Below are positions 4,743 to 6,791 of a DNA stretch of 20,108 nucleotides, piece after piece (position 1 is the stretch's first letter; every line of letters starts with the position of its first letter). The notes under the pieces are model-generated. The model made no database searches. It was not told where the DNA came from and saw only the letters and a program-made list of their open reading frames with translations. A program made the translations under genes and the position numbers. The stretch comes from a virus, in IMG/VR virus record IMGVR_UViG_3300037247_000224, positions 1-20,108 of that record; one strand, 5' to 3'.

Positions 4743-4946
4743 ATGATGAATTTTCAAGAGTTCGGTAATTGGAGGCTGGCTCAACTGCTGCTGGAGTCTG
4801 CGGGGGCTGAGGTTGCATACCTGGGACAGCAGGCTGAGGCTGCGGGCCGTGCATTTGAGGGCTTCGCGGCAGCTTGGGACGCTATGTGGGATGCCATGTC
4901 GGAAGCCGAAAAGGAAGAGTTTAGGCGGCTTGATGCGTCGCCCTAA
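4743..4946 (+). CDS. Small acidic helical protein of unknown function
   Basis: A 67 aa protein (66 aa if it starts at the ATG at 4746) with the ribosome site GAGGG at 4734-4738; spacing slightly favours 4746. It looks fully helical, rich in Ala, Glu and aromatics, with AEVAYLGQQAEAAGRAFEGF then AWDAMWDAMSEAEKEEFRRL. It sits between the protease and the capsid leader, where phages may carry scaffold, protease partner or other small accessory genes. No family is recognised, and a scaffold-like role is only a guess. It overlaps the next possible gene by 14 nt. Confidence 0.6.
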   Translation: MMNFQEFGNWRLAQLLLESAGAEVAYLGQQAEAAGRAFEGFAAAWDAMWDAMSEAEKEEFRRLDASP

Positions 4947-5205
4947 CCCGCTCGCGGCATGGCGGCGGTGGCGCTTCCAGCGGCTTCTCGCCTCCGTCCA
5001 CGGCTCGCCCGTATTCAGATATGTCCGAATGCCCAATAAGCACATCGGTATAGTCACGAAAGTCACTCGCCTTCATCCACCCTTGAAAGGGCAGAGGCAT
5101 GAAGAGAAGATTGAGATACGTGTGATATTCATTGCGGAGCGCTGGCGTTTACCAGGACAACGAGAGGCGACATTCCAACCGAATGAACTCCAACTAATCG
5201 ACTAG
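4933..5205 (+). CDS. Possible small basic protein of unknown function
   Basis: A 90 aa reading frame starting inside the end of the preceding gene. Its first 28 residues are very basic and W/R-rich. The remainder (from MPNKHIGIVTKV) alternates charged and hydrophobic residues like a small beta-barrel protein (EEKIEIRVIFIAERW). The ribosome site is weak (TAGG about 7 nt before the ATG). Codon third positions are less GC-rich than in neighbouring genes, so either it came from elsewhere or the frame is not coding. An alternative start is the ATG at 5023. If it is not a gene, 4947-5226 is a non-coding stretch. No function can be proposed. Confidence 0.42.
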   Translation: MRRPNPLAAWRRWRFQRLLASVHGSPVFRYVRMPNKHIGIVTKVTRLHPPLKGQRHEEKIEIRVIFIAERWRLPGQREATFQPNELQLID

Positions 5206-5226
5206 TCTCCGCGCCCGCCAACGCCC

Positions 5227-5255
5227 TTGACACCTTAACCGTATAGGCGCATAAT
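5227..5255 (+). promoter_or_regulatory. Sigma70-type promoter of the capsid block
   Basis: A perfect -35 box TTGACA (5227-5232), a 17 nt spacer and a -10 box CATAAT (5250-5255, one mismatch to consensus). The expected start of transcription is near 5262. It is the best promoter match I see in the window and points at the major capsid gene, although a terminator lies between them. It would give the capsid block transcription independent of the upstream packaging genes. Confidence 0.8.
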
Positions 5256-5259
5256 CAGC

Positions 5260-5272
5260 ACAACTGAATACG
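5260..5272 (+). repeat. 13-mer shared by both structured leaders, copy 1
   Basis: The sequence ACAACTGAATACG lies at the predicted transcription start of the capsid leader. An identical copy occurs at 12337-12349 in the other non-coding spacer. I saw no third copy in the window. Confidence 0.75.
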
Positions 5273-5402
5273 AACGTGGTGCTAGGTGGTGGAAGGCTCC
5301 GACGAGACCGGAACCCACCTGAGCAAGACGGGTAAACCGCGCACCCAAAGGTAGAGCGCGTAGCCGTCAAAACGCTTAACCGGCGTTTTGGGCGGCCTTT
5401 TT
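5262..5402 (+). ncRNA. Structured leader RNA ending in its own terminator
   Basis: The stretch between the predicted transcription start and the terminator U-tract is about 140 nt with no convincing ribosome site or reading frame. It has several nested helices: outer AGGTGG (5284-5289) with CCACCT (5315-5320) enclosing TCCG (5298-5301) with CGGA (5309-5312); CGCGC (5338-5342) with GCGCG (5356-5360) enclosing ACC-CAAA-GGT; then the terminator stem. It could be a free-standing phage small RNA, the aptamer-like half of a riboswitch or attenuator for the capsid gene, or both. It does not match a tRNA or any riboswitch class I can recognise. Structure is read by eye; no folding energy was computed. 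Confidence 0.55.
5363..5402 (+). terminator. Intrinsic terminator upstream of the capsid gene
   Basis: The left arm 5363-5375 (GCCGTCAAAACGC) pairs with 5383-5396 (GCGTTTTGGGCGGC) as a 13-pair stem with one G-U wobble and one bulged G, closing a 7 nt loop. CTTTTT follows immediately (5397-5402). This is a good rho-independent terminator. It is odd because it lies between the promoter and the gene the promoter appears to serve, so capsid expression must depend on read-through, antitermination or upstream transcription. Confidence 0.8.
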
Positions 5403-5438
5403 CGTCTACCCCAAACGTCGGACCGAAAGGGGTAGACG
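5403..5438 (+). promoter_or_regulatory. Hairpin sequestering the capsid ribosome binding site
   Basis: A perfect 10 bp inverted repeat: CGTCTACCCC (5403-5412) and GGGGTAGACG (5429-5438), with a 16 nt loop. The capsid Shine-Dalgarno sequence AAAGGGG (5426-5432) lies partly in the right arm, and the GTG start (5439) directly follows. The stem can extend: CTTTTT (5397-5402) pairs with GAAAAG (5441-5446), leaving two bases of the start codon bulged. The left side of the extension is the U-tract of the preceding terminator. This layout suggests translational control of the capsid gene. Confidence 0.7.
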
Positions 5439-6791
5439 GTGAAAAGCAGATACAACGTACTGCTACAGGAGAAGGCGGATCTCATTGCGGAAGCTCAAGC
5501 GATCTTCGAGGAGGCTGCCGCCCACGAGAGCGAGGAAGACGGTCAGCCGGTCAAGGGGCGTGACCTAACCGACGCAGAGAAGAAGCGGGACGACGAGATC
5601 CAGGCCGGCCTTGAGGCAACCACCGATGAACTCGCACGCCTGACCCGCCAGCGGGAGCGCGAGGTCGGCACCGAGGCCGTCAAGGAAGTCATCGATAACG
5701 CCCCAGTGGCGAAGGCGCTGCCCACGCCGTTCAGCCAAGAGAGTCGGCCCTGGCAGCGGGGCTTCGGCGAGCAGCTCGCGGCCATTGCCAGGGCGTATAG
5801 TAACCCGTCTGCGGGGCCGGACAATCGCCTTATGGAGATCATGGCGGCGACAGGCATGAGTGAGGGCGTCGGGAGTGAAGGTGGCTTCCTTGTGCAGACC
5901 GACTTCACTGCGGAGCTAATGCGCGAAGTCTACGAGACGGGCGTACTGGCAAGCCGCACCGACAGGACGCCGATCGGGGCCAATTCCAATGGTCTCAAGG
6001 TCAACGCTATTGACGAGACCAGCCGGGCTGATGGCAGCCGCCAGGGTGGCATTCAGGCATATTGGGCGGCTGAGGCGGGTACACTCACGAAGTCCAAGCC
6101 GACGTTCCGGCACATGGAGCTTACCCTTCAAAAGCTCATCGGCCTCTACTACGCCACCGACGAACTCCTGATGGACACAGTTGCGCTGGGCGCGGAGATC
6201 ACGTCGCTCTTTTCAGAAGAGTTCGGCTTCAAGGTCGATGACGCGATCTACCGTGGTGGCGGCGCGGGGCTACCGTTAGGTGTCCTGGGTCACGCGGGAA
6301 CGGTGAGCGTGGCGAAGGAGGCAGGTCAGCCGAACACGACGATCGTCAAGGAGAACATCGAGAACATGTACGCCCGCATCCGGGCGCGCTCGCTCGTGAG
6401 GGCTGAGTGGTTCATCAACCAGGACTGCTGGCCGCAGCTCTTCCAGCTTTCGCAGGTGGTAGGGGTCGGTGGCGTGCCGGTGTTCATAAACGCCAACATG
6501 AGCAACGCCCCGTTCGGAACCCTGCTGGGGCGCCCGATCAACCCCATTGAGCAGTGCGCCACGCTGGGGACGGTCGGCGACATCATGTTCGCCGACTTCA
6601 ACGCCTACAAGATGATCGAAAAGGGCGGCATCGAAGCCGCGTCTTCGATCCATGTCCAGTTCCTCACGGACGAGATGACCTTCCGCTTCACCCTGCGGAC
6701 GGACGGCCAGCCCAAGCGGAATGCACCCCTGACGCCGTTCAAGGGCACCAAGACTCAATCCAGCTTCATCACCCTGGCTAGCAGGCCGTAG
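5439..6791 (+). CDS. Major capsid protein, HK97 fold
   Basis: Shell subunit of the icosahedral head. Residues 1-95 form a charged, coiled-coil region like the HK97 delta (scaffolding) domain, probably removed by the S49 protease. The fold proper starts near residue 110. Hallmarks are EGGFLVQTDFTAELMREV (147-164), IQAYWAAEAGTLTKSKPTF (205-223) with the following strand and helix TLQKLIGLYYATDELLMD (229-246), and GRPINPIEQCATLGTVGDIMF followed by ADFNAYKMIEKGG near the end. Length 450 aa is normal with an attached delta domain. The start is GTG at 5439 with AAAGGGG 6 nt upstream; that site lies inside the hairpin described separately. No scaffold gene is obvious, fitting a fused delta domain. 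Confidence 0.95.
   Translation: MKSRYNVLLQEKADLIAEAQAIFEEAAAHESEEDGQPVKGRDLTDAEKKRDDEIQAGLEATTDELARLTRQREREVGTEAVKEVIDNAPVAKALPTPFSQESRPWQRGFGEQLAAIARAYSNPSAGPDNRLMEIMAATGMSEGVGSEGGFLVQTDFTAELMREVYETGVLASRTDRTPIGANSNGLKVNAIDETSRADGSRQGGIQAYWAAEAGTLTKSKPTFRHMELTLQKLIGLYYATDELLMDTVALGAEITSLFSEEFGFKVDDAIYRGGGAGLPLGVLGHAGTVSVAKEAGQPNTTIVKENIENMYARIRARSLVRAEWFINQDCWPQLFQLSQVVGVGGVPVFINANMSNAPFGTLLGRPINPIEQCATLGTVGDIMFADFNAYKMIEKGGIEAASSIHVQFLTDEMTFRFTLRTDGQPKRNAPLTPFKGTKTQSSFITLASRP

Follow-up and report, generated by a model that had tools for sequence, protein, structure and literature searches.

The 5′ leader of the major capsid gene in the window, i.e. the whole stretch of 20,108 bases analysed here (IMG/VR virus record IMGVR_UViG_3300037247_000224), probably works as a two-lock RNA switch over transcription and translation, and the parts of the leader, their mutual exclusivity and their conservation were established by computation. 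The genes are ordered as portal, S49 protease, two small ORFs, leader and capsid, and the ORF 3′ of the leader's last stem encodes an HK97-type capsid protein (Pfam Phage_capsid, E = 1e-38). The promoter listed in Table 1 is the sole one in 4900–5700, compared with an average of 0.2 in shuffled sequences. A common layout was observed before related capsid genes, namely a promoter, a hairpin P1, a hairpin P2 (antiterminator), a terminator and a stem sequestering the Shine-Dalgarno sequence (SD), with the relatives' promoters positioned much as in the window; the leader 5′ end AACTGAATA is common to the window, L002, L270 and L176. A 58-aa small ORF (MPNKHIGIVTKVTRLHPPL...) lies at 5029–5205 of the window, immediately 5′ of the capsid promoter.

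Table 1. Features of the capsid leader and its surroundings in the window.
Feature	Positions	Strand	Remarks
Sigma-70-type promoter, TTGACA-17-CATAAT	5227..5255	+	11/12 consensus bases
Leader RNA to terminator end	5262..5402	+	start approximate, ~7 nt past the -10
Hairpin P1: stem AGGTGG/CCCACCT, cap GGCTC-CGAC-GAG(A)CC at 5295-5309	5284..5320	+	predicted fold
Antiterminator GACGG 5327-5331 / CCGTC 5364-5368 around the P2 cap	5327..5368	+	minimum free energy (MFE), partial transcripts
Intrinsic terminator: stem 5363-5376/5382-5396, U-tract 5398-5402	5363..5402	+	predicted fold
C:D pairing, CCGGCGTTT 5380-5388 / AAACGTCGG 5413-5421	5380..5421	+	MFE at transcript ends 5423-5431
SD-sequestering stem D:E, CGTCTACCCC 5403-5412 / GGGGTAGACG 5429-5438	5403..5438	+	perfect 10-bp inverted repeat
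Shine-Dalgarno AAAGGGG	5426..5432	+	GTG begins 6 nt later
Major capsid protein gene, GTG start (5439-5441)	5439..6791	+	Pfam Phage_capsid

Relatives were surveyed in 173 capsid loci obtained from capsid-protein searches and one protease search, 34 of which were flagged by a scan for terminator-like hairpins close to where the capsid gene begins; the scan counted weak flags and missed the window's own terminator. Based on position and terminator, 27 leaders were chosen (the window, L002, L003, L004, L005, L006, L007, L068, L121, L123, L125, L126, L129 and L130; L134, L152, L169, L176, L214, L251, L258, L265, L270, L272, L294, L316 and L321), with L214 being part of a Planctomycetota MAG; among the remoter protease relatives L039–L118, a leader was found in L068 only. 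A covariance model trained with the window left out (R1) ranked the window leader first among its untrained matches (19 bits, E = 1.3e-4), and supports a leader family modestly, because its inspected matches elsewhere at 13–17.5 bits (L005, L007 and L309) were not leaders but the hairpin of a terminator or the start of an ordinary gene. Against cultured phages the leader DNA had no useful similarity, and the nearest capsid proteins were 23–38% identical; the two best-matching phages, Streptomyces phage Dagobah and a Bradyrhizobium phage, lack the leader and have no room for it, since their pre-capsid gaps are just 3 and 101 nt. In the capsids of L005:4767, L123:2527 and L130:2788, which begin at the site controlled by the stem, an additional hydrophobic, membrane- or signal-like N-terminal segment precedes the usual capsid N-terminus; this is unusual in capsid proteins.

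The stem hiding the capsid SD (D:E in Table 1) is real and exceeds chance. An earlier note on this DNA had described a 10-bp stem covering most of the SD, and this was confirmed, directly 3′ of a strong terminator; all coordinates that it claimed around the capsid start were exact when checked against the sequence (CTTTTT at 5397–5402, GAAAAG at 5441–5446, TACCC at 5407–5411 and GGGTA at 5330–5334). The D:E duplex surpassed nearly all shuffled arms in the window (p = 0.002), and the SD stems of 20 leaders yielded a combined p = 5e-13 against shuffles, a value that counts kindred leaders as independent. The stem persists in relatives though its sequence is completely different: 118 of 118 hand-listed pairs were retained (in four leaders after bulge removal), and a pair was changed on both sides in 304 of 675 leader-to-leader comparisons, so that the proposed check for compensatory changes found the stem kept. 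It is absent from the L004, L006, L129 and L258 leaders. In the MFE structure of 5262–5460, the terminator occurs together with the 10-bp stem, which the U-tract extends with a bulge of two bases, and the whole region outperformed each of 200 dinucleotide shuffles in folding (z = −3.42). That extension, by which the U-tract would pair with GAAAAG over the start codon, is thus present in the window's predicted fold but is not conserved, because the second codons of the relatives are not A-rich; an anti-start role of the U-tract is possible in the window phage and is not a shared feature. The SD stem itself seems to form the final element of a conserved RNA switch that occurs in many uncultured phages.

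Upstream of the stem, the antiterminator 3′ side of the window is the terminator 5′ arm, and the P2 cap (5338–5360) consists of CGCGC 5338–5342/GCGCG 5356–5360 and ACC/GGT with a CAAA loop and an AGA bulge. When leaders were folded without the terminator 3′ arm, P2 and its flanking helices captured the terminator 5′ arm, hence P2 is the antiterminator, and such an antiterminator was predicted in nearly all leaders, as in L121 (AACAG.GAA.GCGG-CUA-loop-UAG-A-CCGC.UUC.CUGUU). The predicted structures thereby have what marks an attenuator, upstream RNA that pairs with the terminator 5′ arm. In the growing window transcript the antiterminator is the MFE structure at ends 5371–5391 and the terminator from 5395. 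P1-type hairpins are also present in L002, L003, L004, L005, L270 and L129.

In the predicted folds, the recurrent alternative partner of the anti-SD arm (D) is the terminator 3′ arm (C; window 5380–5392). The window pairing includes GGG 5390–5392 with CCC of the anti-SD arm, and as the transcript grows it is the minimum at 5423–5431, with the SD stem dominating from 5435; the window duplex on its own reached p = 0.048 only. When 22 leaders, each representing a close group, were tested under fixed window rules, C:D gave a combined p = 9e-11 against dinucleotide shuffles, for a pairing initially spotted by eye and with kindred leaders not fully independent. Its equivalents comprise 13 perfect bp in L002, 10 bp in L068, 8 bp in L130 and L176 and 7 bp in L007, and it is missing in L004, L006, L129 and L258, the same leaders that have no SD stem. 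RNAalifold, run with no structure supplied on an alignment of eight distinct leaders (A3), returned P1, the antiterminator hairpin and C:D, i.e. the ON structure described below, and for 15 of its 28 consensus pairs one or more sequences had both bases replaced. The terminators of L121, L123, L125, L005, L003 and L316 carry a conserved internal part, ACC...GGTGCGC, which is more than termination needs and is consistent with a double use via pairing with the SD-stem loop.

The switch would operate as follows. Transcription would begin at the host-type promoter just 5′ of the leader, and by default the terminator (B:C) would form and most polymerases would halt, while in any leaked readthrough RNA the SD stem (D:E) would fold and leave it untranslated. 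If the antiterminator (A:B, capped by P2) were held, the terminator 5′ arm (B) would be occupied and polymerase would go on, and the freed 3′ arm (C) could then pair with the anti-SD arm and stem loop (D), leaving the SD (E) open. OFF would therefore be terminator plus SD stem, and ON antiterminator plus C:D, so that a single event would unlock transcription and translation of the capsid gene together. We infer that holding A:B is the regulated step, that it is brought about by a factor which acts in trans and recognises P1 and P2, the simplest candidate being an RNA-binding protein made late by the phage, and that the open state would persist long enough for ribosome binding. By the window energies, ON is ∼11 kcal/mol less stable than OFF, and the combination of antiterminator and SD stem lies between them, ∼7 kcal/mol more stable than ON; in isolated 3′ pieces without the terminator 5′ arm, the SD was clearly accessible in L125 only and slightly so in L002 and L068. 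ON is thus not the resting state, and full SD opening requires a factor or kinetics (e.g. ribosome capture).

These energies bear on the strongest rival, a static insulator in which terminator and SD stem just silence the capsid gene, no refolding takes place, and expression depends on ribosome loading and on a polymerase made resistant to terminators in a Q- or put-like way. The two elements would suffice alone for silencing, and the SD stem usually wins at equilibrium, but the recurrence of C:D, its absence precisely where the SD stem is absent, and an antiterminator overlapping the terminator would all be left unexplained, and we consider this reading unlikely. Less credible still is a small-RNA gene whose product, for example a packaging or regulatory RNA, would be the terminated transcript of ∼140 nt, with the SD stem blocking misuse of leakage. 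An own promoter, conserved hairpins and a strong terminator would suit such a gene, but the leader's location is tied to where the capsid gene begins, P2 and the terminator overlap, and C:D joins the terminator to the SD stem.

As for what the two-lock switch may sense, P1 and P2 carry one motif, 41–47 nt apart, in many leaders, with motif matches at p ≤ 0.01 in L004, L068, L121, L123, L126, L316 and L169, and the motif varies by lineage (UCACGAGAUGA, CUACGAGAUAG, CUUCGACGAG, CUCCCAAGAG, GGCAGAG, CUUCCGUAGA and GCGGUAGCG). The window's own P1 and P2 caps are alike in shape, architecture and spacing and have no common sequence motif. Because the loops match within a leader and differ between lineages, P1 and P2 are suggested to be two sites for one putative, co-evolving trans-acting RNA-binding factor. 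The same pattern speaks against a metabolite running the two-lock switch through tandem small-molecule aptamers, where a fixed ligand pocket would be expected; two similar hairpins, the second shared with the expression platform, do resemble tandem aptamers, but no Rfam riboswitch match was found, and we hold this reading to be slightly less probable than a small-RNA gene. Least credible of all is the pairing by which the earlier note had GGGTA 5330–5334 free the ribosome site by taking up TACCC 5407–5411, which is the minimum-energy pairing transiently, at transcript ends 5411–5419 only, while the anti-SD region showed no enrichment for pairing with the upstream leader over shuffles (22 leaders, combined p = 0.35; window alone, p = 0.58), a test that doubles as a specificity control for C:D. 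The broader idea of a regulatory, switchable leader has held, through a hidden SD, its maintenance by compensatory changes and a refolding alternative, but with a partner other than GGGTA.

Other hairpin arrangements were also seen. The L004:1727-1956 leader, which is without an SD stem, has a CUC-CCAA-GAG hairpin three times rather than twice; L134, L139 and L251 form a separate leader class with repeated CACGCGG(C/U)AGCGG hairpins, one copy of which in L251 is 3′ of the terminator, near the SD. Paired ACGAGAT motifs away from the capsid context were found twice (L244 and L248), in other sequence and by chance. Ribosome stalling is an unlikely sensor as no upstream ORF is conserved: an SD-bearing short ORF is absent in 20 of the 27 leaders, and the seven candidates disagree in position or length. 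Searches of 17 records, mostly fragments, found no ANTAR protein, with none in the control genomes either, and no CAT_RBD (LicT/SacY-type) protein, for which the controls were positive; a host factor is possible.

Among known systems, the vmlR leader of Bacillus subtilis comes nearest; in it, an intrinsic terminator with a competing antiterminator is followed by an SD-sequestering hairpin that pairing in the readthrough transcript disrupts, and an antibiotic is sensed by ribosome stalling on a short upstream ORF (PMC9226507). The terminator/antiterminator/SD-hairpin logic is thus already known. The capsid leader likewise has its SD hairpin after the terminator, with an alternative pairing predicted to disrupt it in readthrough RNA, but differs in having no conserved SD-bearing short ORF, in its twin hairpins and in preceding a phage capsid gene. 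ANTAR (EutV/NasR/AmiR) sites also consist of two hairpins recognised together, with P2 exclusive with the terminator; their hexaloops have A at position 1 and G at position 4, and the eut linker is 5–12 nt (PMC3369931). The capsid leader shares the two successive hairpins and the mutual exclusivity of P2 and terminator, whereas its lineage-specific loops are of 4–5 or ∼8 bases, 41–47 nt apart, and an SD stem is added; the loops read from the leaders break the A1/G4 hexaloop rule of ANTAR target RNAs (PMC3369931). As regards joint control, the capsid leader would govern termination and SD access together. This is also what the Bacillus trp leader does with TRAP, which binds GAG/UAG repeats in single-stranded RNA; the capsid leader, in contrast, shows no array of such repeats. 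In lambda N/boxB and Q/6S, a phage promoter, an RNA element and a terminator are combined, and the polymerase is modified to pass distant terminators. HK022 put is likewise a phage RNA that modifies RNA polymerase, by binding to it, and suppresses termination downstream (PMC9378689). As in lambda and HK022, the capsid leader combines a phage promoter with an RNA element and a terminator, and its phage-specific loops recall boxB, but its P2 shares bases with the terminator next to it and is tied to the SD stem.

Although the switching logic is known, the RNA family and its genetic setting are new. The leader matched no family among the Rfam 15 covariance models, either at the gathering score or in a permissive search, and no description of such a leader was found in open-licence papers. 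More tentatively, these leaders may constitute a tailed-phage family of attenuators with twin hairpins, so far undescribed, that couples readthrough to release of the capsid SD, with an RNA-binding antiterminator of each lineage's own as the late-stage key. If the two-lock switch operates as proposed, a structural phage gene would be guarded by a cis-acting RNA double lock, and not only by late promoters or general antitermination, and simple reporters would allow the timing of capsid synthesis to be tested directly. From hairpin loops that differ by lineage, a set of RNA-binding regulators still to be discovered in phages is predicted, and a leak-proof terminator plus SD stem, both opened by one refolding, would offer a compact model for controlling transcription and translation in a coupled way.
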